From NCBI GenBank assembly GCA_905220665.1, contig CAJNAR010000152.1, positions 186,001-250,000 of the forward strand: a stretch of DNA of 64,000 bases, given 5' to 3'. Within the stretch, counting starts at the first letter, position 1. Each line of letters opens with the position of its first letter. Shown one piece after another: positions 29,225 to 60,927 of this stretch. Origin of the DNA: Albugo candida (lineage: Eukaryota > Oomycota > Peronosporomycetes > Albuginales > Albuginaceae). The notes beneath the pieces are model-generated. The model had not been told where the DNA came from. It made no database searches and worked only from the letters and a program-made list of their open reading frames with translations. A program made the translations under genes and the position numbers.

Positions 29225-32200
29225 TCAGGGCTCACTAGTTTTAGGTTTCAATAGCTGTGCGTGTGAGCACCCATAATCGAAGAATAATTCTTGTCCCATT
29301 TTGATATTCTCCTTTGCAAAAAAAGCGACCCGCTGATCACCCCTCACAACAACAATTTTAGCTTCCAGAGTTGCCCGAGACATTGGTCGATGGTTCGCGA
29401 ATTTCATTTTATTCCCTTTTCGAGCAGCGTCAATAACTTCTTGTTGGTTCACATCGAACAGATAACTCACTCCTGATCGATCATAAAAATAACCACAGCG
29501 CTGAGCTTCCTCATCTGAAAGAAGAGCACCAACATACTCATACACAAATTCCCCCTTATAAATTCGTTCAAGAGCAAAAGCTCCCCACCCATGAACAGAA
29601 GAAAACGCGATTCCCACCTTCTTGTGTGCACGGCGTGACAAGAAGACATTCTCGCATATTTCCGTTAATTCTAATTTGGTAGAATTTTTTTCATTTGATG
29701 GCGACTTGTAGCCAAACGCGGTGATGGCAAGGCTACTGGCACCACACGAAAAACAAACGTCTGGATCACATTCACGACCGGCGAGAAAACAAACACAGGA
29801 TTTGGTGTTACAGTTTCCGGGTGAGCATTTACAGCCACGAAAGCGATTGATGCAATGACGATCGCAGCTACAAGCAGCTTCACAGCACAGATGCTTCTGC
29901 ACACAATCGCATGAAGCCGTACAAGGTCCACTGTGATTGCAAGGTCGATAGCTCTGATGATGGCCTCCATTCTGCATCCGTTTCCGAAGTTTATGCATCA
30001 AGTAAGCCCGATACGATCCATTCTTATAACTTCGAGATAGCGCAAGTTTGCGTTTGGAGCTTTCTGATGATGCATTTTTCATATCCAAACTTTCAAAACC
30101 GACCGAATTAGTGGCGAATTCTCGCAACATTTCACTCACTTCCCAGCAAAGTAATTTATGAGCATGAAGAATTTTCGTGATAGCGCATGGCTGATGGCCT
30201 ATCACCACCAGAAGCTTTTTGACGATCCCTACTTGTGGTGGTGTCAATTTTTTTGTCAACTTGGTCGTGTAAATTTTCGCCGCATTTGTGCCAATGTAAC
30301 ATCCCTCACTGCATCGAGTCTTGGGATCCAGCAGTAATTGGGTGCAAGGAACGATCGCTTCAAGTAAAAATGCTCGATCCAAGTACTCACTCATGTAATC
30401 GTCTACTCCTGTCACATTCTCTGGTCTTCTGCGATACCGTCTGGAACGAACCTTTATTTGCTTATTTTGAAGAGCTAACCCAGCAGAGGCTTTTGAAACT
30501 ATTTGAGTCTGGGTTCTAGCCGAACGACGACGTCGTAGTTGGGACGTTTCCACATCCAAGTCTTCAACTTGTTCATTATTATCAGCGTCTGACTGAGAGC
30601 TGGTTTCCTTCAGATCATCATTTTGCACTTCAGTATCGCTTTCTTTTAAGAGACTGTCACTGGAGTCTGAGTCTTCTAAGGCTCTGGCTGAAGGTTCATC
30701 CATTCCGTTTGTATTGTTGCCAAGAAAGGGTTGCAGTGGATCAGTGCGCTCTGACGGTAGAGGGTGCTCTATACCGTGTTTACCACAATCGTATATGAAG
30801 CAACGACGACAAAACAGATCGCGGTAACACGAGACAAGAGCGCTGTATTCTGATTCGTTCCGAAGGCCACCATTTTCAGGGGTATTCGCATAATTTGAAT
30901 ATATGGATGCAGTTGGTGCTTGCAATGCCAAAGTCACATCCATCCTTACACCGCGATGGCATGACGATGATTGTACTTCCTCAAGTCGACGCAAATAAAT
31001 CGACGTCTTGCCTTTCTTTTTAGTTTGCAAAACCTTCCGAATTTTTGCCATAGCCTCTTGAGAGTGCTCTTTAGCTATCTCACGTTCTAGTAATTTCTGA
31101 AACTCCCTCTCAGGTTTGACAAAACCATATCCAGCTCTTAGCGTATTGAAAGCCGGCGCAAGTTTTGACTCACTATATTCTGCGATGACCATCTTAAGCA
31201 AGCACTCCATGATTTCGTTCTCTATAGCCGACGGTATAATTTGTTTCAAATTCGCTTTAGCCACCGGAGTAAGTTGATCTGCGTCTATATTATCACCAAC
31301 TATTTCGATAGAGGCAGATGCTGATTCATTTATAATCGAATCATCATCACTATCAGCTACAATTGGTTCCGTAAATGTCCTACTTGCCTTGATCGTTGTA
31401 CCCTCATAAAATGATGCATTAATCGGCACTTGTGTGCTCTTGTCGTCCACATATGGGACATAACGTAGAATTGGATCATCTTCCTGCAGGAAATTGTCCC
31501 GAAGCCCTATATATGTGTTCCACTTGGGCATGTAGCCAACTTGGTGGTGTAGTACACGAGTAACCTTCGAGACAATCGCTGATTGTTTTGCGTGTTCTTC
31601 AATAGAAGTCTCATCATTGCCATCACGGCATATATAAAAGCTACTTATCAGCGGGGATTGATCATGAATCGCCGACACTTCTCCAAGTCGCTTCTGCGTA
31701 ATATGGGTCTCCACGGGACATTTACTATCTATATTTGGACACAAAACTGTGCTTCAGTCAGACAGGTGAGCTGAAGGACATGCTGCGCCTATAGCTTATC
31801 TAACCTGGAACGCCGCATCCTTCTTGTTGGCGGAATGTGGCCAAGTCTTGCAAATACCTCTTCACTTTTTTTCGTACTGAAGTGATAATATGTTCTACTT
31901 GTCTTTGCTGGCAAACTTGCAGCTTCTTGAATAACTTTGAGACGGTCTGGTTGACTCGAGGATCCACTTTTGTGCTTTTGCTTTCCTATTGCATTCATCA
32001 GATTCAGGTTCATGTTGCAGTGGATCTTTTGTATGTTCACGTACAACGAGTACTTGGGTTATAATATCGTCTTGTATGAGTTTTAGCGCCCTCTTTACTC
32101 CTAGCTTGCATTTGTACGAAATGATCCCGGAGACGTCATAGGACGTAAGGCTATGATTCAAATCGACTTGGAACGGAACCATATGAGTTTCAGCTTCTTT

Positions 32201-48440: not shown

Positions 48441-51400
48441 ATGGTGGACAAGATTAAGGATTTTTTTCGGAATTTTATTCTGACAAAATCGGCATTTCAA
48501 GATAACAATGACGACAGAGGCGAACAATCTCTAGTGAAGAGTGATCAGAACAATGAGAAGGGTGATACGATGCCTGAAAATGTCATAAACGGATCTGTAG
48601 GGAGCGGAGGAATTCCACGTGTGTCGTCAATGCAACAAGTAGCGTCCAACAAGTTACACAGCAAGGCGGATAGCACTTATACACATTCGAGAGACGCATT
48701 ATCGGTCATGCAATTGTCGTTCGCAATCAACGATCATAAAGCGCCTTCTGGCTCAAGCGTATTGTCTGCAGCATTGAAGGCCGGGCACTACCTCACAACC
48801 GATACTTTTGATCGAACGCTGAGATGGGACGTGGTTTTATATAAACTTTATCAATTGATTCGGGAAGCTCTTCGAACGACATGTCTGATCTCAAGCGCTG
48901 GTTCACCACTCACGAGATCGATGAAGAATAACCCAGGTAGAATGACAACAATGAACTCAAACCTCCAAACAGACTCAATTGCGTTTGATCACGAAAATAA
49001 CTTTTACATTCCAAGTGCACAAATGCATGCGGTTGTGGAAATGTTGAAGCAGATGGGGACCCGAGAAATTCAGCTGCAAATCTTTCGATACTACCGCAGT
49101 GGTATTACGTGCTCTGGCCGAATGCATGAGAATTCTGCCAAAGCTTGTAACTCGAATCGAATTGGAATAAATGAAACTGAACGGATGGAGCTGCTTAATA
49201 ATTGTCGCCGAGCCCTTCTTGACTGCTGGAAATTCGCTCTTGATCAGCTGAATCAATTCACATTTCGGCTATATGAGCATGATCGAGAGGACATTGTCTA
49301 CTTGTATTATGAATTGATTTGCCATGTTGCTGAAAGATGTGAATTTCATCCACCTGGTCATTTTGAGTATCAAAAAGACTCGCATGATGCAAACGGAAAC
49401 GAAGTGGAAGCCCATCGCGATATCGATGAGGTGAATCAACTACGGGAAGCAAGCAGTGAGATTGGAAGTGTCAAGCCCCACGATCAGGTTCCAAAGATCA
49501 TAAGAAAAGGGTCGACTTGTACGAGTCCAAAAGATGAGACCGCCGAAAGCGACATAGACGCGTATCGCTGGTCCCTTGTTGCCACATTTCACCACGTTGC
49601 TGAGACAATCGAATATACAAAGCAACATAAACGGCCTGGTCGAAATTGGATCTCCATCAAAGAAGCTCAATTTTCCTCCAAAATGATTGCTATCGCTTTT
49701 GTTCGAATTCCATCGGTTCAAATGGTGATTTTAGAGCATATTTCACTCGCTGTCAAACAAAAAGAATGGTCTTTGGATCGAAATGAGGCCAGCAATACTC
49801 CGCAAGGAACGAAATCCTCTCGACGTCGTCACTCATCGGGTAGCAATTCCAATGATTTGCAAAAGTTCTTACAAGAATGGAGCGGTTGTGCTGACAATTT
49901 CAAGAAATGTGGTCGATCCAAAAAAGCGCATGGAAGAAGTTTAGACGGTGTCGACGAAAATCAAGACTCATACATTCCAAACAGCGCACCAAATGATATG
50001 AAAAACCTGCGCAAATGTGCAAGTATGGATACAGATACTCTGTCATTGGTTCATTCTTCCGACACCTTCAAATTTCTCAACGTCGGGGTACGAAAACGTT
50101 CATTGTCTCCAAGAAAAGCATCGAGACAAGAGAGGATTGTGGATAATACGCATGCTTTTACTGCTGACCCATTGGCATCAAAGGCGTGGGAACAAGAATT
50201 TCCAGCGCTTTTTGGGTGGACGATGTACAAACCATATCTGGCTTCATCTTTGGACGTGGAGTTATACTCAATTCCCTCCTTGCAGGGTCAAGATTTTCCA
50301 TCCTGGCTCGACAAGATTACTCACGATGGAGAATTTTTTGCATGGTTCATGTCATCGTACTTTGAGCATCTCGCTATCTCGTCGTATAGCGTGAAATACC
50401 CGTCAGCATTTCGACCCATTCCGTGGACAGCACTTCCAGGCTACGCTCTTTTGGTCAAGACGCTGCTTCTTCTTGTTCGAGAGGCAGCGTGGGAACAATG
50501 GCAAATGACTTGTCGAAGTTATGAAGATGACCTGAAAGCTTTTGTCAACGAGACTCCATGCGTATCTCTTTTTTTCGCTCTTTCTCGTCGCGGGATCACG
50601 ACAGTATTGGACCAGGTGCATCATTGGCTTGGAGTGAATCCAGGTTTGTTGGATCCATGCGTCTTAGCTCTGCTCGAATGTACGAATGCTTACAGTATCA
50701 AAAGTGTCAGCCAGTGTCTTTCCAACTTGGAAAAATGGTTCAGTGCTGCTGCAATACCCCGAAAGTATCCATCCAACAAAATTTCAACTTCTTTGTGGCG
50801 GTTGCCAACGTCATTCCAAGGGCTTAAATTCGTATACGCTGTGCGTCGGCTGGTGTCAAGCGAGAATTTTGAGATTTTGAAGCGGGTGCTACTGTTTCTG
50901 TATCGTCGGATGGACTACTTTGAGGACACGTTGCGTCAGCAGACTCTCAAGATACTCATACAGCGTCATATGAGCCTTTTTCTCCACTGGAATTACGAGG
51001 TTCGACGATATTATCACCATCTTTTGGTTTTTCGTGTGGCTAGAGTATCACGAACAGCACTTAAATCATCCACAGACTATCTTCTCGTTCGGAAGGATTT
51101 CGATGGTCTCTCTTGCTTTGACAGTCGATTTCTTCTTCCATTTGATACTCGGCTCAATGGGAGCGTGAGTGTGACATCATGTTACGACGACTGTGTCACA
51201 AACTCTGCTGATGATTCAATGGCAGCAAATAGTCCGCCCGAAATACAGGAATTACTGAAAAAGACAAATTTGAAACAATTATGGACGAGAAGCGATTTGA
51301 AGTGGTTGCGAAGAGAACAAGCGTTTTGGCGTGCATTTGATGCTTGCATCGCGACGATATGCTGCGATGAACGGAAAAGAGCACACGAACGAAATCAGCA

Positions 51401-51779
51401 ATTCCAACAGGAACAAGAAGCTATTCACATCCGATCGTTGTCTTTTCATAAGCTGCATACGAATCCAGACACTTCATTCAAGATCAACTCGGTCCATGAG
51501 GGACTTCCAGGGGCCAAATTGGGATGCGGACAACAAGAGGTCGACAGGTTGAGTCGGGCGTTATGTCGTCAGCCTCCATACTATCTTCGATATCTTCCAA
51601 CTGAGCATGTGGGCTACTTGCAAGAACTCAAGAGATTAGCTTCTCACTTCAAATATCCCGATAATTTGCAGGTGTACGCTCCAACATCTCTGCGTGAGTA
51701 TTCCGACACTCTTACAAGCTACTTTCAAGAGTTTAATCGCTATGGAGTCGTTGAAGCAACTCCTTTAGAATTTTGCTGA
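48441..51779 (+). CDS. Large protein of unknown function, possibly DUF1765-like
   Basis: This is an intronless 1112-residue frame with an ATG start. No signal peptide or clear membrane segment is seen; the chain is helical with a basic Ser-rich central linker (about 430-550). The region from about 580 to 880 (PALFGWTMYKPYLASSLDVE, then FEILKRVLLFLYRRMDYFED and FLHWNYEVRRYYHHLLVFR) recalls the fungal DUF1765 pattern, in which an RLFLHWS-type block follows a helical repeat. This match is from memory and by eye. The C-terminus contains a QPPYYLRYLPTEHVGYL motif that looks conserved. The cellular role is unknown. Confidence 0.65.
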   Translation: MVDKIKDFFRNFILTKSAFQDNNDDRGEQSLVKSDQNNEKGDTMPENVINGSVGSGGIPRVSSMQQVASNKLHSKADSTYTHSRDALSVMQLSFAINDHKAPSGSSVLSAALKAGHYLTTDTFDRTLRWDVVLYKLYQLIREALRTTCLISSAGSPLTRSMKNNPGRMTTMNSNLQTDSIAFDHENNFYIPSAQMHAVVEMLKQMGTREIQLQIFRYYRSGITCSGRMHENSAKACNSNRIGINETERMELLNNCRRALLDCWKFALDQLNQFTFRLYEHDREDIVYLYYELICHVAERCEFHPPGHFEYQKDSHDANGNEVEAHRDIDEVNQLREASSEIGSVKPHDQVPKIIRKGSTCTSPKDETAESDIDAYRWSLVATFHHVAETIEYTKQHKRPGRNWISIKEAQFSSKMIAIAFVRIPSVQMVILEHISLAVKQKEWSLDRNEASNTPQGTKSSRRRHSSGSNSNDLQKFLQEWSGCADNFKKCGRSKKAHGRSLDGVDENQDSYIPNSAPNDMKNLRKCASMDTDTLSLVHSSDTFKFLNVGVRKRSLSPRKASRQERIVDNTHAFTADPLASKAWEQEFPALFGWTMYKPYLASSLDVELYSIPSLQGQDFPSWLDKITHDGEFFAWFMSSYFEHLAISSYSVKYPSAFRPIPWTALPGYALLVKTLLLLVREAAWEQWQMTCRSYEDDLKAFVNETPCVSLFFALSRRGITTVLDQVHHWLGVNPGLLDPCVLALLECTNAYSIKSVSQCLSNLEKWFSAAAIPRKYPSNKISTSLWRLPTSFQGLKFVYAVRRLVSSENFEILKRVLLFLYRRMDYFEDTLRQQTLKILIQRHMSLFLHWNYEVRRYYHHLLVFRVARVSRTALKSSTDYLLVRKDFDGLSCFDSRFLLPFDTRLNGSVSVTSCYDDCVTNSADDSMAANSPPEIQELLKKTNLKQLWTRSDLKWLRREQAFWRAFDACIATICCDERKRAHERNQQFQQEQEAIHIRSLSFHKLHTNPDTSFKINSVHEGLPGAKLGCGQQEVDRLSRALCRQPPYYLRYLPTEHVGYLQELKRLASHFKYPDNLQVYAPTSLREYSDTLTSYFQEFNRYGVVEATPLEFC

Positions 51780-52020: not shown

Positions 52021-52533
52021 TTAAGAGCTTTTGTCTGCGTCATCGCGAAGGTTCAGGTTGAAATCCTCGATCGGCTTGAATGTAACGGGAGCGCTCTTGT
52101 TTGCATTTGCAACTTCATACCAATTGGACGTATCGTTATCCGTCTTGGCGTTCCCACCATTGTCCACCGTGCCATCTTCACCGTTATCCATCTTGGCCTT
52201 ACCATCATTACCCATCTTGCCATCTTCACCATTATCTATCGCGACCTTTCCATCATTACCCATTTTGGCGTTCCCATCGCTATAGCTTTTGTAAACTTCC
52301 TCGCCATTGTTGTTGGAGTCCCCGCCATTATTGTATTTGGAGTCCTCGCTATTATACGCTTTGGCCATTTCATCATTCTTGCCCACATTAGTCGCACCGT
52401 AAGTCTGATTGCCACTCGTGTTTGCGGAAACATTGCCTTGAAAGGCATTCACCGAGTTGTTATGATTATCCTGTTGGCCGAATGACGCGACTTGTGCAGC
52501 GGATAGTACAGCGATAAGAGCGGATACGCGCAT
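52021..52533 (-). CDS. Small secreted Asn/Asp/Gly-rich repeat protein
   Basis: Starting at the ATG at 52533, the product is 170 residues. The N-terminus MRVSALIAVLSAAQVASFGQ is a strong signal peptide, so this start is preferred to one 15 codons upstream. The mature part is very rich in Asn, Gly and Asp, with imperfect repeats around MGNDGK and DNGEDG (about residues 85-130) and possible N-glycosylation sites (NNS, NVS, NTS, NQT). No cysteines or known domain are present. It could be a cell-wall, extracellular-matrix or host-interface protein; this is inference. It lies between the two largest genes on the right of the window. Confidence 0.7.
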   Translation of the reverse strand: MRVSALIAVLSAAQVASFGQQDNHNNSVNAFQGNVSANTSGNQTYGATNVGKNDEMAKAYNSEDSKYNNGGDSNNNGEEVYKSYSDGNAKMGNDGKVAIDNGEDGKMGNDGKAKMDNGEDGTVDNGGNAKTDNDTSNWYEVANANKSAPVTFKPIEDFNLNLRDDADKSS

Positions 52534-52822
52534 GGTCAGTAGATGATTGGTTTGGTAGAGTTTCTTGGAGTTGTTCAAGCTGTCTGAAAATCTGGAAATG
52601 AGCCATTGAATCGCCTAAATAGCGGCGACACACTTTCTCAATTTAGACGGGTCATCGCATTGAGAAAATACGGCAGCAATATTGTTTCTCTATTCTGATA
52701 AACTTTATTAAGGAATACAAACAGACTTTTGTATATCCGAGCACTCATGTTTGACCACAATTGTACTATCATAATTTATTGAACATCACTACGGAAACTT
52801 CAACCGAAACTTCAACGCACAA

Positions 52823-55800
52823 TTAGGAAAGATTACTTCCGCCAGTTTGCGGTGGACATCGATACTCCTCAGGAAGTAACGAGCGCTGTATAGCATTGAA
52901 CGCATACATTCTTCTTCCCGTATTTTTCCAACAGTTTTCAATCCGCACGCCTTCCGATCGCATAACCGCCACAATCTCTGCCTTTTTAGTTTCAGGCAGA
53001 TTATGATTCGTGACCAAAATACGTCCTTGCTCCAACGTTACAGACATTCCCGTCCGGTCTTTCGCGCTCTTGCAGCACGTCACTCTTCCACCGCCTATTA
53101 ATCGAACTAAATCAGAGCTCAGTTGTAATATTTCCGGTCGTTTCTTGCGCGTTTGATGTGACAAACAGATCAGATTTTCCAATTGCGCTAATGTTTTCTC
53201 AATCAGTTCACGACTTGGCATACCGTCAACGGCGTTGACATTCACACCGCTTTGTGTGCGCGCAGAAAAGCTGCTATATCGCTCACAATACGACCGCAAA
53301 GAGCGCAAACTCGCAGTATTGATAACATCCTGAAGCTGTCGTGTGGATGGCTTTGTGCTGTTTGCAATGGTCTGTTTCTCATTAATCCCTTGGGAGAAAA
53401 GCACAGGGCACACTCGTATCATTGCTCCGTCACACAGCGAGCGACCTAGTGGAACGTGAGTCGTCCGCAATGTGACTCGGATCACGAGATGCGTATACCG
53501 AAAAATCCGATGGAAGAGCTGGTTCCATATCTGAGACATTGGAATGCATCCGAAATCGCCTTCTTCTCGAGCGCGTGGTCCAATTCTCAGCTGTTTACTT
53601 TTGCGGAAAATGGAATGGAGTAGCTTTTGGCCGCTTGAGAGCATCGACGTCGCACGATCCATACCGGAAAACTCGACTGTGCGATTATTACAGCGAGATT
53701 GGCTTCCGCTATGGCTGCTATCATCACTGCTGCAGCTATGCCGGTTTTCATTTGGAGTCTGCCAGAACGGATGATTTGGATACTTTTTCAGAGCTTTTTC
53801 GATACTGCTGAAAACGTCCACGCGAGTGACTCCAGCTTGGTCGTAGAAATTGTTCAGCACGGATGAGCAAGTATCGGTGTTGATGTCAGTATTTCCGGAA
53901 TAGAATGTGGCTTCCGAATCTGGATGGAAACTATGGCGACTATCGCTTGTGGTGGCGGTGTTGGAAACCGAAGTTGTGGCAGTGGTAGCGGCATTCGTGC
54001 TCGTTGTGCTTACAGCTGGTGCGACTTCACACGAGTTCGAAGTTTGCATGTTCAGTGGTCGATCGTGATGGGATGGCGGTACATTGCGATGGTCCGGGTT
54101 CTTGGGAACTTCATGCTGTTCTTCAACAAGGATGAATTGGACATTACGAAGCTCGTTCACAGCTGCTGCCATATCTTCAAGCATCCCTGCTTCATTCCCG
54201 TGTGTAGAAAGCAAACTCTCTACATCAAAGAGAAAGCCAACCTTTTCGAATTGATCCAGCATTCGTCTTCCGATGGATTGCGTCGATACTTGAACAGCAA
54301 AATCCAGTTTTCTCGTAAAGGCGGTTACAAGAGCAGCGATAGCTTGTGGGAAACAAACATCCATCCGTTTTTGAATTTCCCATTCCAAATCTTCAGCTTT
54401 CTGTTGCGATTCCGTCCAAAGCGGATCTTGACGTGTGTTTTGACAATGATCATCAAATTCTCTTCCCTGCATTTTCGTCCGTTGTTCTTGCAAGCCAAGA
54501 ATGCCTCCTCCACGGAATTTGTACACATGTGCGGCCATAGCGCCCACCGTCACCGTATCGTACACAGCCGATCGCTCGACTGTACTCGGCTTGGATCGAT
54601 CGTCTCCAGCGGCATTTTGGCTGATACACGATGACTGTGAAGCAATTTGCCGGGATTTCGCCAGCGAATCGACTTTGGCGACCCACATTTCATGTAAATG
54701 AAGGTTTACCGGCAAAAAACGAAGTGTGGCATTCTTCTTTAGGGTGCTCGGTTTGAAGTACTGCTGGTTCTCATCTCTCCGTTTGTACACCTTACGCAAT
54801 TGGTACAGCAGCTTCACGTACTGTTTGCGTGCATCCAGCCTCCGTGAGAGCCATTCCCGGCAGCGTGTCAGATCACCATCATTCTGGATCTGCTCAATGA
54901 GGTTTTCGTAGATATTGCGACTTGAAGTTTTGGCACGAACACGATCGTAGCTGTCGACTCGACTGAGGTCCTGTTGTGCCTGCAGTAGACATTTAGCTCG
55001 ATGATGGACAATGATCTCAACGACCTGGCGCGGAATCAAATTGTTGAAGCGACCTTCAGTCAGATCCTCAACCACAAGCAATCCTTGCTCTCGAATGTGA
55101 TACTGGCTACTGATCGATTGCGATAGCGGCATTCCATTCACAGCATTCGCTGCAGCCTGGACGCCCCCTGCTTGACTGAAACGAGGCATCACAGGATGAA
55201 TGAGCAATTTTGGCGGTGTTGCGACAACGCTGGATTCTCGTATCGTACGGAAAGATTGCTCGGCTGCAATAAGTGACATTTGTTCTCCTCGTGAGCCGTA
55301 TTCTACAAGCCGATCCATGGAAACCCCAAATTCAGCGACAACGGTCCATTGCGACGCGAGCGCTGGCCTTTCTTCCTGAACAACCTCATCATCCTCATAA
55401 TCTGATTCATCCTCAAATAAATCCTCAACGGCCTGTGAGCCAAATTCGTCTTCTGTCTCATCAGGAATCCCACCGCCAGTCGCTGTGAATTGGCGCCAAA
55501 GTTCTGCTTGTTCGAGTGCGTTGTTAGTACTTTGGTCGATACTGGAAGAATGGAGTCGAGCGATGACAGCCTCAGCGGTGATGACTGATGGATCCCGTCG
55601 ATCCATTGCTGACAAAAGCTCTTTGACCGAATACACAACGAGCCGAAGCTTCTCTTCAGCGAGGAACCCGAGTGGAATCCGAGGAACTGACATGAACGAG
55701 TATACCTGCCGTCCCAAAGGCCCAACGACCGCTATATTGCTGGAATGCACAGTGTCTGTGTTGCTGATCTGTTTCCATATGTATCGATTCGTATCGGCAT

Positions 55801-58711
55801 TCCATTCGAGGCGCTGGATACCGATATAACATCCTTGCTCAAAGACTTCATTGATTTCTAGAATGAGCGAAAGGCTGATGTAATGCGTGACTTCTGCTCC
55901 ATTTTGCTCCTGGACGATAATGGATCCTTTGTCGTCATACGTATGGATGGATGCTGCGCGTTGGCTCTGACGTTGAAGCATCGAGACACTGGCACGAACC
56001 TCATTTTCTTTGATGAGAGCATCGACCAATTTGGAAGTATCTCCCTCGCTCCATGAAGAAGACGCAAATGAACAGCTCGGGGTTGCCACTTGTTCGTATT
56101 GTCCATCCGACATTTCCGATTGAGAATCTGTGAATCGAGACTCATTTGGGACTTCTCGAAGCGATTTTGCGGTGGAATTCCATTGCAGAAACACGAGACA
56201 GCAAGGCGGAATCGAGTATGGAAGCCACACAGTGAAGATGTAGTACCAGGGATACGGGATCGGATCTTTGCTTAAAAGTTGGACAATCCACGAGAGAAGA
56301 TAAATTAGTGTGACGACGCCAATGAGAGCGTAATAGAGCCGAAGAGCTTTCCGGAGCACCAATTCATGAAGCCCCGTCATCTGACCAAGTAATGAGCGCC
56401 CTCTACGCATTACCATGACACCCAACGCCATGACGACAACTGTCAGCGCCAGAAACACTGCGTACGTGATAGTTGTGGACACGAGAAAAATTTGCTCTTG
56501 ATCATTGACGTAACAGCTCCAAAGATATCGAGGTAGATCGGAAAATGCGCTGGAAAGAAGCTGAGCATCGTCTCCTTTGCACTGTAAATTCATTAATGAG
56601 GAAGGATCTTCTTCGTAAGCGTACACGCGGTCGATGAGGTCAATGTGAGCGAGCAGAAAAACCAATTGGAAGCCGTAAAAGGCCGCGTTTAGCAGCACAA
56701 ACGCGAAGCATACTTTTTTTTTCGGTAATTTTCGAAGACGAAGACTCAAGACTGTTCCCCAATGAAACGATACGGCCAGCAGCATTGTGAATGTAAAGCA
56801 CAGCTGTACACGCGATATGTAGAAATACGCACTTGAGCGCATAATGGTCCAAAATATATTGTTCACAATGGCAGTGGATAGCTCCAAAACAGTGCAAACA
56901 GCTGTGATATCTGTCCAAATAGAGCCCAATGAGAATGAAAGTCCATTGGATCGGATGACAGCACTGCAGAAGAGCAACGAGCCGACAAGAACGACAATCG
57001 ATACGTAGCTGTACGAGCTTGCACTCGCTCCAGTCATTGAATCAACCGAGATGGAAGAGATCGTACCGTCCACTACGAGGTTGTCATTGGGATCATAAAC
57101 GCCCAACATGATCTGATTCAGACCCGTGTATGATACCGAAGGATTCTGGACTTGGCTCACACTCAATAGGACCCAGCCTTTCTCGATCGCCTGTGCGACT
57201 TTGAGCTGCCATTGACCTGTAGAAGCTGTATGACGAGTGTGCAGAATCGGAGAAACATTCGCTTCTCCATAGACGGAAGCGTTTGTGTCGGTTGGTACAT
57301 TGGGTACATCAGTGCCAGGGGACTCCATGGAAGACGTCAACATCCGATTTGTGGTGTTGGTACCATTTATAGAGGGATCGACCCGTGTGGCGTCCCATCC
57401 TGTCTCAATGTACCACGTTTCGGATCCTGTGAATGTCCATCGTCGATCGAATGTGATAGATATCGTGCTTTTTGCTGGTATTCTCGCATTTGAATAAAAG
57501 GATAACGATGCATTTCCTGCATTACCGGGATATATATTTTCTGGGACAAAAGATGCGCTTGAGATGGAAGCGGCTTCGAGAGGAGATACGCGAAGGAACG
57601 AAGAGAATACGCCGCCATTTTCATCATCAAATATGTAATGGATTGGCGTGAGATTGGAATCGGTCGTGTAGATGAGTGTGGGACGATCGCCATCTTGTAA
57701 AGTACGCAGTTGGGACGCATTGAGTCCTGTTGGCGTATTCACATGATCAAAAGTAAGACGCAATGGGTCGTATGTTAATTGGTGCTTTGATGGGACGTTG
57801 ATGGTCAAATACGCACGCGTGACACCTGTACCACTACTATTGGAGTATAAGGAAACAAAACAAATTGTTTTAATCAAGCTTGGATTGGACGAGTCTGGGG
57901 CATTTGTCGTTACTGTATCGTTTTGGTACAATTCCACACTGCAATAGGGATTCGTGGTTGAGAAATTGTATCCAATTGGACTTGCAATCATAATCTGCTT
58001 CAATCGTTTGGACGGATTGTCGCCGTAGAAAGAGCTCACAAAATCGTCACGTTTTATTATGACCGAGAATGTCGCATTGATTTGGCCAGGATATGCTGAA
58101 GAGACGCCTTTCCAAACATTCGTTCGCAATACGGCTTCGTGACAGCATGGGTCACTACACTCAAAGTTGGCTAATTCTGTGTACGACCAGGTGGTACTTC
58201 CACTGCAGAACGATTGTTTAGACGAGTTGAATCGACAAGATGGAAAGTTCATGCACGGAAACCACGTCTGATGGTTTTGCGCTTGTCGTCCACCATACGT
58301 GCAGCATGGTAGTCCACTACATTCTCCATTCGGAGTGTTGAACAAATTGGAACTTGTTGGTACGCAACACGACGGGACCAAAGCTTTGTCGACGGATACA
58401 GCGTCCCCTACTTGACAACATCTGGAACAATCATCGTTTTGGTACGACAGTGGAAATGGGTTCGTGGTGCCGGTTTCCGGACCGTTATCCCACGTACCAT
58501 CAGCGCTCAAGTCTTGACTCGTCACAGCCGATGGAATTACAATAATCAGACTAATATATGTCCATATCCTTGCGAATCGAATCAACGGAAACTGTTTTCG
58601 GTTAGAGATGCACACTCGGGTCCTAATGCAAGATCGTTTCTTAGGGGACACTATAAGTTCAGGCAACATGTCATGTGTGTGACATTTTTCTGAATACCGA
58701 CTCGCGCGCAT
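52823..58711 (-). CDS. GPCR-like receptor fused to an INPP4-type inositol phosphatase
   Basis: A single intronless frame of 1962 residues (ATG at 58711; the frame extends upstream only to a GTG). After about 45 basic residues there is a signal-anchor-like hydrophobic stretch, then a cysteine-rich ectodomain (DDCSRCCQVGD, LPCCTYGG, DPCCHEAV) with many N-glycosylation sites up to about residue 560. About seven membrane helices follow (roughly 565-845). The cytosolic remainder has an acidic region, then a long domain resembling type I inositol-3,4-bisphosphate 4-phosphatases, ending with the catalytic Cys-x5-Arg loop CCKSAKDRTGMSVTLEQG near residue 1880. GPCRs fused to catalytic domains (GPCR-bigrams) are known in oomycetes. 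Ligand sensing coupled to phosphoinositide dephosphorylation at a membrane is the inferred role. Confidence 0.88.
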   Translation of the reverse strand: MRASRYSEKCHTHDMLPELIVSPKKRSCIRTRVCISNRKQFPLIRFARIWTYISLIIVIPSAVTSQDLSADGTWDNGPETGTTNPFPLSYQNDDCSRCCQVGDAVSVDKALVPSCCVPTSSNLFNTPNGECSGLPCCTYGGRQAQNHQTWFPCMNFPSCRFNSSKQSFCSGSTTWSYTELANFECSDPCCHEAVLRTNVWKGVSSAYPGQINATFSVIIKRDDFVSSFYGDNPSKRLKQIMIASPIGYNFSTTNPYCSVELYQNDTVTTNAPDSSNPSLIKTICFVSLYSNSSGTGVTRAYLTINVPSKHQLTYDPLRLTFDHVNTPTGLNASQLRTLQDGDRPTLIYTTDSNLTPIHYIFDDENGGVFSSFLRVSPLEAASISSASFVPENIYPGNAGNASLSFYSNARIPAKSTISITFDRRWTFTGSETWYIETGWDATRVDPSINGTNTTNRMLTSSMESPGTDVPNVPTDTNASVYGEANVSPILHTRHTASTGQWQLKVAQAIEKGWVLLSVSQVQNPSVSYTGLNQIMLGVYDPNDNLVVDGTISSISVDSMTGASASSYSYVSIVVLVGSLLFCSAVIRSNGLSFSLGSIWTDITAVCTVLELSTAIVNNIFWTIMRSSAYFYISRVQLCFTFTMLLAVSFHWGTVLSLRLRKLPKKKVCFAFVLLNAAFYGFQLVFLLAHIDLIDRVYAYEEDPSSLMNLQCKGDDAQLLSSAFSDLPRYLWSCYVNDQEQIFLVSTTITYAVFLALTVVVMALGVMVMRRGRSLLGQMTGLHELVLRKALRLYYALIGVVTLIYLLSWIVQLLSKDPIPYPWYYIFTVWLPYSIPPCCLVFLQWNSTAKSLREVPNESRFTDSQSEMSDGQYEQVATPSCSFASSSWSEGDTSKLVDALIKENEVRASVSMLQRQSQRAASIHTYDDKGSIIVQEQNGAEVTHYISLSLILEINEVFEQGCYIGIQRLEWNADTNRYIWKQISNTDTVHSSNIAVVGPLGRQVYSFMSVPRIPLGFLAEEKLRLVVYSVKELLSAMDRRDPSVITAEAVIARLHSSSIDQSTNNALEQAELWRQFTATGGGIPDETEDEFGSQAVEDLFEDESDYEDDEVVQEERPALASQWTVVAEFGVSMDRLVEYGSRGEQMSLIAAEQSFRTIRESSVVATPPKLLIHPVMPRFSQAGGVQAAANAVNGMPLSQSISSQYHIREQGLLVVEDLTEGRFNNLIPRQVVEIIVHHRAKCLLQAQQDLSRVDSYDRVRAKTSSRNIYENLIEQIQNDGDLTRCREWLSRRLDARKQYVKLLYQLRKVYKRRDENQQYFKPSTLKKNATLRFLPVNLHLHEMWVAKVDSLAKSRQIASQSSCISQNAAGDDRSKPSTVERSAVYDTVTVGAMAAHVYKFRGGGILGLQEQRTKMQGREFDDHCQNTRQDPLWTESQQKAEDLEWEIQKRMDVCFPQAIAALVTAFTRKLDFAVQVSTQSIGRRMLDQFEKVGFLFDVESLLSTHGNEAGMLEDMAAAVNELRNVQFILVEEQHEVPKNPDHRNVPPSHHDRPLNMQTSNSCEVAPAVSTTSTNAATTATTSVSNTATTSDSRHSFHPDSEATFYSGNTDINTDTCSSVLNNFYDQAGVTRVDVFSSIEKALKKYPNHPFWQTPNENRHSCSSDDSSHSGSQSRCNNRTVEFSGMDRATSMLSSGQKLLHSIFRKSKQLRIGPRAREEGDFGCIPMSQIWNQLFHRIFRYTHLVIRVTLRTTHVPLGRSLCDGAMIRVCPVLFSQGINEKQTIANSTKPSTRQLQDVINTASLRSLRSYCERYSSFSARTQSGVNVNAVDGMPSRELIEKTLAQLENLICLSHQTRKKRPEILQLSSDLVRLIGGGRVTCCKSAKDRTGMSVTLEQGRILVTNHNLPETKKAEIVAVMRSEGVRIENCWKNTGRRMYAFNAIQRSLLPEEYRCPPQTGGSNLS

Positions 58712-59435
58712 TGTAAAGTGTACCACGTCTCGTCGGTGCTACGGCGATATCCGGTGCTGGATCGCAAAATGATAAATCGGAGCAGCAGAAGTCTTCTATG
58801 ATGTACTATATCGATACGAATATTATACGACAAACAGTTGCACGTGTCGAGCTCACCAATGCACGTCGCACGACAAGATTGCTTCGAGAGAATGGAATTT
58901 GGGCACAAACGAGGTGTTAGTAGCGTTCTAGTTTGGCTTTGCTTCGAGAAATGACCAATCATATTGCATTACAGAAAGTTCAGGGATTTCCCATGAACCC
59001 TAGTGGCACCGTAGTAATGTCATTTAAAATTATCAGATTGCCAAGTCGACGATAACAGTTAAAACATTCACCTTTATTGCTTACTTGCGGTGTATTCGAA
59101 TGGTTAATAGCGTAAAAGTAGATCGGATACGGGCTTTCCCAGATGACCAGATGACCAGATGACCTCATAAATGCTCTCTACAAATCCAAGCACAACAGCG
59201 CGCTGCATTACAACGGACAAGAGTGGTTTTTATTGAGCTTCATAGCTACAGGGTCGCCGTCATCAGCCACTCAAAAGCGTCCGAAATTTGCTCACTTCGA
59301 AGTCATATGTACCGTAGGAAACAACCGTTCCTATTTGTGCATTTAGTATGTCCTTTATCGTATCATAACAAGCACTAGTGTCTGTAAGCTAGTAAACTGA
59401 TTATTGACAAATCAGATAGAAATCCGTGGAAACTA
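58712..59435. other. Intergenic stretch between divergent genes
   Basis: This gap lies between the receptor-phosphatase and legumain genes and should hold both promoters. It includes a small perfect tandem repeat, three copies of CCAGATGA at 59139-59162. Otherwise nothing is recognised. Confidence 0.55.
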
Positions 59436-60927
59436 ATGAAAAGTGTTGGGTCCATTCTTGAGCCGCTCACCCTCATCCATTTGTGTCTACTGTATGCGAC
59501 TGCGGATCATTGGGCAGTCATTGTTGTCGGATCGAGAGGATACTGGAATTACCGCCATCAATCAGACGCATGTCACGCTTACCATGTTGTTCACGATCAC
59601 GGTATTCCGAAAAAGAATATAATCCTGATGATGTACAATGACGTGGCACACGATTCTAAAAATCCATTGCCTGGTACACTGTATAACCGCCCTACTCTTT
59701 CGCGCTCGACGGGTCAAGTTACCGAACCCAAAAATGTATATGACGGATGTCATGTAGAATACGCCGGTGATGCGGTCACACCTCAAAATTTCATGAATGT
59801 ATTGCTTGGTAATAAAACGGCATCAAACGGAAAACGGGTTTTGGAAAGTATCAAAACGGATCGAGTTTTCATCAATTTTGTGGATCATGGGGCAAATGGG
59901 TACATTGTATTCCCAGGTACAAAAAAACTTACTGCACGACAATTGCACAGTACACTATTGCAAATGTACACCGAGAATAGATACAAAGAAGTTGTACTCT
60001 ATATGGAAGGTAAGACACTACCTTTTCTATAAAGTACGCTGCTTACTGATGGAATAATATGCAGCGTGTCATTCCGGCTCTATGTTTATAAATCGACTGC
60101 CCAGAAAATATAACATTTTCGTCACAACTGCTGCCAATCGACACGAATCTTCGTGGGCAACATACTGCCCGCCTTACGACAAAGCCTACAATCACTCTAT
60201 AGGTTCGTGTTTGGGCGATTTATACTCCGTGAATTGGATGGACGATAGTGATTTGGCAGATCTCTCTACTGAAACTTTGGCGCAGCAGCATGAGAAAGTC
60301 AAGCGAGAGACGACAAAGAGCCACGTGAAGAGGTTCGGATCACAAACCGTTGAAAACGAGATTGTCGGTAATTTTCAGTCAGTCGATGACATTTCAGTTA
60401 TAGAAGCAACCGCGCGCAATGCAAGCGACAAAGTCATTACGCCGATAAGCGCGCAAGATTTAAAAGTAATAAGTGCCGTAGAGACGTACGATGTCGAATT
60501 GATTGGGAAGTTTTATCGGTACCTTCGCTCAGAATCGGCATCTGATCGTACGCGCTCTGTTTATGACTTGATGGAGGAGCTAAGAAAAAGAATCCGAGCC
60601 GATGAAGTCTTTGACCGGTTGAATACCGTTGCCAGAAATGTAGTGGACAGAGTACAAGGGTCAGATTCTGGCTGGGAGTGTTATGAGAGGGCTTTGAAGA
60701 TGTTCGATGTTAGTTGTGCGGGGCTGGGAGATACTGAATTGGGTGGTGCATTCACTTCCTACAGTCTCAAGTATACGGAAACTTTTGCTGCGCTTTGTGC
60801 CTCCTATAAGAATCACTCGGCTGGCGTAGAAAGGAAAATGGAGCAGGTTTGTTTGGAATTACAAAAAGATGAAAGCTTCTTTAAAGGAGTAAACGATCGT
60901 CATAGTGGAAAGGTCGATTTGAGCTGA
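59436..60927 (+). CDS. Legumain-type asparaginyl endopeptidase (C13)
   Basis: Exons 59436-60009 and 60065-60927 give 478 residues. A hydrophobic N-terminal segment (LTLIHLCLLYATADH) serves as a signal peptide. The catalytic domain follows: HWAVIVVGSRGYWNYRHQSD, then VFINFVDHGANGYI with the catalytic histidine, and YMEACHSGSMF with the catalytic cysteine, which is restored exactly at the splice junction. TTAANRHESSWATYC and YSVNWMDDSD are also family hallmarks. Legumains cleave after Asn or Asp in acidic vacuoles or outside the cell and activate other proteases by processing. The last 180 residues correspond to the helical prodomain, so a full zymogen is expected. GPI8/PIG-K was considered, but the length and prodomain favour legumain. 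Confidence 0.93.

Follow-up and report, generated by a model that had tools for sequence, protein, structure and literature searches.

The window analysed here is a 64-kb stretch of contig CAJNAR010000152.1 of Albugo candida, from an assembly of 38.9 Mb in 196 contigs. Its minus strand carries a single frame, from an ATG at 58711 to a stop codon at 52825-52823, which codes for a protein of 1962 residues with a cysteine-rich ectodomain, seven predicted membrane helices and a phosphatase domain of the INPP4 type (Table 1). The frame sits within a stop-to-stop frame of 1971 codons without stop or frame break. Among the 5.8 billion proteins of the database searched, its nearest neighbour is F0WVL0 from Albugo laibachii, which aligns with it over the full length, the ectodomain being 84% identical, the seven-helix block 98%, the middle part 91% and the phosphatase part 92%. 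Thirty more family members (P0003-P0032, the last one partial) match 61-97% of the query at 44-50% identity and, together with the collinear A. laibachii protein, exclude a chance origin of the frame. The poorly conserved stretches (residues 1-80, 441-480 and 1641-1680) are all present in the A. laibachii protein too, so that no intron would be required to explain the frame. An earlier, sequence-only reading of the locus had described one intronless frame of 1962 residues, and this is borne out by the intact and collinear open reading frame. That two adjacent genes were accidentally read as one is scarcely credible, since the same domain order occurs in single predicted proteins of many genera and the frame is uninterrupted. 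A plus-strand reading of the locus was rejected, the longest stop-to-stop frame listed there having 255 residues.

The hydropathy scan showed seven peaks between residues 568 and 842, N-terminal to the enzyme and within the same frame, in line with the "about seven" membrane helices of the sequence-only reading. In the structure model, the block consists of six long helices and a seventh split in two. The loop between helices 3 and 4 is basic (RLRKLPKKK) and the one between helices 4 and 5 is acidic and Cys-bearing, giving a predicted topology with the N-terminus outside and the C-terminus inside. Residues H650, W651, Q843, W844 and N845 are invariant in the 53 aligned rows, which represent three families, and W829, L830, P831, P835 and P836 are found in 52 of them, the remaining row having a gap.

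Comparison of the C-terminal domain with INPP4 by hhalign covered 519 columns with an E-value of 7.9e-44, and the upstream half alone (residues 1195-1440) gave 9.2e-17, the homology extending over the whole domain, beyond the catalytic loop. Profile and fold matches agree on the INPP4-type domain seen earlier. Its loop, CKSAKDRTGM, had been called intact; it is identical in the eight animal INPP4 proteins P0054-P0061, and C-K-S-A-K-D-R-T is kept in 52 of the 53 aligned seven-transmembrane (7TM) proteins, the exception, P0032, ending before the loop. Pfam returned a single row for the full protein (E 1.3, nowhere near the cut-off) and none at E<=0.1 for five paralogues; the domain assignment therefore rests on profiles and folds built in the present analysis. 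PF22785 was rejected as an INPP4 model, being a different phosphatase family (Tc-R-P; 10 matches). The alignment of the cytosolic model (A4) was built without P0032 and without any of the eight animal INPP4 proteins, and from paralogue family B it omitted 10 of 18 rows; alignment A3 was without P0032, A2 included six of the eight animal proteins and P0062 is in no alignment.

Table 1 Features of the frame (all on the minus strand; positions are those of the window).
Feature	Residues	Positions	Evidence
Whole coding frame with stop codon	1-1962	52823..58711	Collinear with A. laibachii F0WVL0, 89% identity over 100%
Probable signal-peptide core, preceded by an N-terminal stretch of unusual length	46-66	58514..58576	Hydropathy peak 41-59
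Cys-rich ectodomain module, 14 Cys	95-190	58142..58429	Each Cys conserved in 23-29 of the 31 rows
Beta-sandwich (Ig-like) ectodomain part with N-glycosylation sequons	197-556	57044..58123	AlphaFold model, loose fold matches
Seven-transmembrane block, HW and WLPxxxPP...QWN signatures	566-852	56156..57016	Hydropathy, alignment
C2-like domain with a low-confidence acidic insert	941-1180	55172..55891	Model
INPP4-type inositol polyphosphate 4-phosphatase domain	1196-1962	52826..55126	Profile and fold homology
CX5R catalytic loop CKSAKDRTGM	1880-1889	53045..53074	Same in eight of eight animal INPP4 proteins

The sequence searches linked the domain to only two proteins of solved structure, P-Rex1 and P-Rex2. 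Both are Rac exchange factors without a seven-helix block, in which the INPP4-type domain is held to be a scaffold. In structure 6pcv, P-Rex1 is bound to a G protein, which we take to be beta-gamma. The domain of the Albugo protein could likewise be a scaffold and not an enzyme, making the protein an ordinary receptor or a G-protein docking site, and a model with an inactive domain is among those listed in the passages of PMC6033456 covered here. We regard this as highly improbable, because the P-Rex1 and P-Rex2 loops (CGTGMQRSTL and CSSGVHRCTL) retain the Cys and the Arg and not the residues between them, whereas the Albugo protein has the full INPP4 loop, and C-K-S-A-K-D-R-T is kept in 31 of the 32 rows of its own family (the other being truncated) and in all 21 rows of the paralogues. 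The homologous domain of the phosphatidylinositol-3,4-bisphosphate (PI(3,4)P2) 4-phosphatases INPP4A and INPP4B carries the identical loop in the eight animal proteins, of which seven come from named butterflies. These animal proteins differ in carrying a PH domain (Pfam) and in having no match to the seven-helix block; against the ectodomain they gave insignificant rows only (E 0.55 and 0.57). An N-terminal C2 domain is typical of INPP4.

The protein is genuine, conserved and intact, and belongs to a class that has already been published. Given its conserved frame, signal-like N-terminus, Cys-rich ectodomain, seven helices and INPP4-type domain, it is very probably the Albugo form of a bigram joining a G protein-coupled receptor to an inositol polyphosphate phosphatase (GPCR-INPP). 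Such bigrams, which the sequence-only reading had already named as known in oomycetes, have the same N-terminal seven-helix block and C-terminal phosphatase (van den Hoogen et al. 2018, PMC5784254; van den Hoogen and Govers 2018, PMC6033456), and the passages of these papers covered show no defining difference from the Albugo protein: seven helices stand N-terminal to the enzyme within one frame by hydropathy, and the C-terminal inositol polyphosphate phosphatase domain is recognised by profile and fold. P. infestans is reported to have seven GPCR-INPPs and other oomycetes between one and nine, and the class is also reported in the alga Nannochloropsis gaditana (PMC5784254, same passages). GPCR-PIPK bigrams, described there as well, resemble the Albugo protein in joining seven helices to a phosphoinositide enzyme and differ from it in that the enzyme is a kinase and not a phosphatase. 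A C2 domain, the anatomy or family of the ectodomain and subfamilies of GPCR-INPPs were not found in the passages covered of PMC5784254, PMC6033456, PMC9694693 and PMC11554144 (supplementary tables and most subscription papers being outside this scope).

Several points weigh against the GPCR-INPP assignment. None of six seven-helix segments matched a Pfam GPCR family, and the profile of six of the ten segments (alignment A6) found no PDB chain at E<=10; GPCR classes diverge strongly and therefore the missing sequence match leaves GPCR kinship possible. Confidence in the seven-helix model is uneven, with means of 34-85 for 10-residue blocks over model residues 501-790, and the C2-like domain is assigned solely from its predicted fold. 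The long stretch ahead of the signal-like segment makes it uncertain exactly where the protein starts, or whether an exon lies upstream. Expression, ligand or enzyme data for any GPCR-INPP were not found in the same literature passages. The observation made in the sequence-only reading stands, and its interpretation is partly supported; signalling without a G protein, as it envisaged, would be one possible mechanism. The block might instead be a non-GPCR seven-helix fold, for example TMEM87-like, which would make the protein a phosphatase anchored in the membrane and bearing an adhesive ectodomain; we hold this to be unlikely.

The hydropathy scan showed an extra peak at residues 41-59, at the position of a signal peptide. 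Residues 1-45 (58577-58711, minus strand), which precede the signal-like segment, are present in A. laibachii, but at some positions 29 of the 31 rows have gaps; by eye, the P. infestans relative P0013 begins directly with such a segment. We found 16 conserved Cys between residues 95 and 284 (14 in 95-190, plus Cys257 and Cys284), each in 23-31 of the 31 aligned rows, as expected from the Cys-rich ectodomain noted earlier, and the sequons N212, N331, N353 and N400 are conserved in 19-27 rows. In the AlphaFold model, a loop-rich, Cys-rich start is followed by mainly strands; most 10-residue blocks of residues 197-556 have a predicted local distance difference test score of 67-90, falling below 50 near 441-483. 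The rows listed by the first fold search with the N-terminal model were exclusively beta sandwiches. Since the fold matches are tandem beta sandwiches of bacterial adhesins (root-mean-square deviation 11.9-12.9) and integrin legs (7.3-7.8), the model points to a general Ig-like arrangement and not to a family. A viral fold library was uninformative (beta-sandwich rows at best E 1.1e-4, viral GPCR rows E 3e-3 or weaker). The ectodomain alone (residues 85-560), searched against the 5.8 billion proteins, gave no match at E<=1 among 6206 candidates, which were limited to 0.55-1.75 times the query length, so that long relatives could not show up.

Eighteen of the 30 family members come from Phytophthora, Pythium, Globisporangium, Peronospora, Peronosclerospora, Bremia, Plasmopara, Hyaloperonospora and Lagenidium. 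P0063-P0068 came to light in a search that used the seven-helix region alone as query; five of the six are from Aphanomyces, Achlya and Saprolegnia. These proteins match the ectodomain (E 8e-6 to 2e-26), the seven helices (38-51% identity) and both enzyme halves, and weakly the C2-like part (E 3e-4 to 0.1). From this distribution, the common ancestor of these oomycete orders probably already had the architecture. All 38 proteins of that search belong to the own family or to the Saprolegniales-type relatives, and 35 have CKSAKDRT; P0066 reads CTSGKDRTAM, P0032 is truncated before the loop and P0065 is a disrupted gene model. No seven-helix block with a different enzyme was seen among them, in a search that covered proteins of about 1080-3430 residues and also missed the 21 homologous paralogues P0033-P0053, so that other fusions, such as GPCR-PIPKs, remain possible. 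In the two paralogous families, P0033-P0050 and P0051-P0053, both the seven-helix block (28-31% identity, E 4e-16 to 4e-34) and the phosphatase (37-42% in the segment that aligns best) are related to those of the Albugo protein, but BLAST gave no match at E<=1 for the ectodomain or middle part. This fits one ancestral 7TM-INPP fusion whose outside part would later have been replaced or have strongly diverged. A bolder version, which we consider very unlikely, is that the seven-helix, C2-like and INPP4 parts form one ancestral signalling core with an outside part replaced or changed beyond recognition, yielding at least three receptor types for different cues that all remove PI(3,4)P2, and that the INPP4 part may carry a P-Rex-like G-protein docking surface, integrating and not bypassing G-protein signals.

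As for the mechanism, we propose that the ectodomain would face out and bind a ligand (given the adhesin-like arrangement, conceivably part of a surface or cell wall), and that the seven helices would shift on binding and relay the change to the cytosol, where the C2-like domain would place the phosphatase at the membrane. Helix movement would control the phosphatase either directly or via G proteins. The enzyme would strip the 4-phosphate from PI(3,4)P2 and related inositol phosphates, like INPP4 enzymes, whose substrates are so given in the passages covered of PMC9694693. GPCR-INPPs and GPCR-PIPKs have been speculated to form a phosphorylation-dephosphorylation cycle, the PIPK product being named as phosphatidylinositol-4,5-bisphosphate (PMC5784254, in the part covered). 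Because the INPP4 substrate would be PI(3,4)P2 and not this product, so simple a cycle seems, for this subfamily, less straightforward than has been suggested. If active and receptor-controlled, the phosphatase would make the protein an enzyme-linked seven-helix receptor acting directly on phosphoinositides, which is called unprecedented in the part of PMC6033456 covered. Oomycetes include major crop pathogens, and the domain borders ease catalytic testing on the soluble part.

Ordinary eukaryotic genes surround the locus. Next to it, two separate frames at 59388-60032 and 60082-60927 (plus strand) match a legumain-like C13 peptidase with E 2.2e-56 and 4e-28; they presumably belong to a single gene that a short intron divides. 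Directly downstream, at 52021-52614 (minus strand), a 197-residue stop-to-stop frame that is hydrophobic close to its first Met and has Asn/Gly/Asp/Lys-rich repeats possibly codes, by eye, for a secreted low-complexity protein. Positions 48441-51779 (plus strand) hold a 1112-residue frame with DUF1765 (E 7.7e-19), 29225-31744 (minus strand) a frame with the CXC and SET domains of an Ezh2-like protein, and a kinesin frame also lies farther from the locus.
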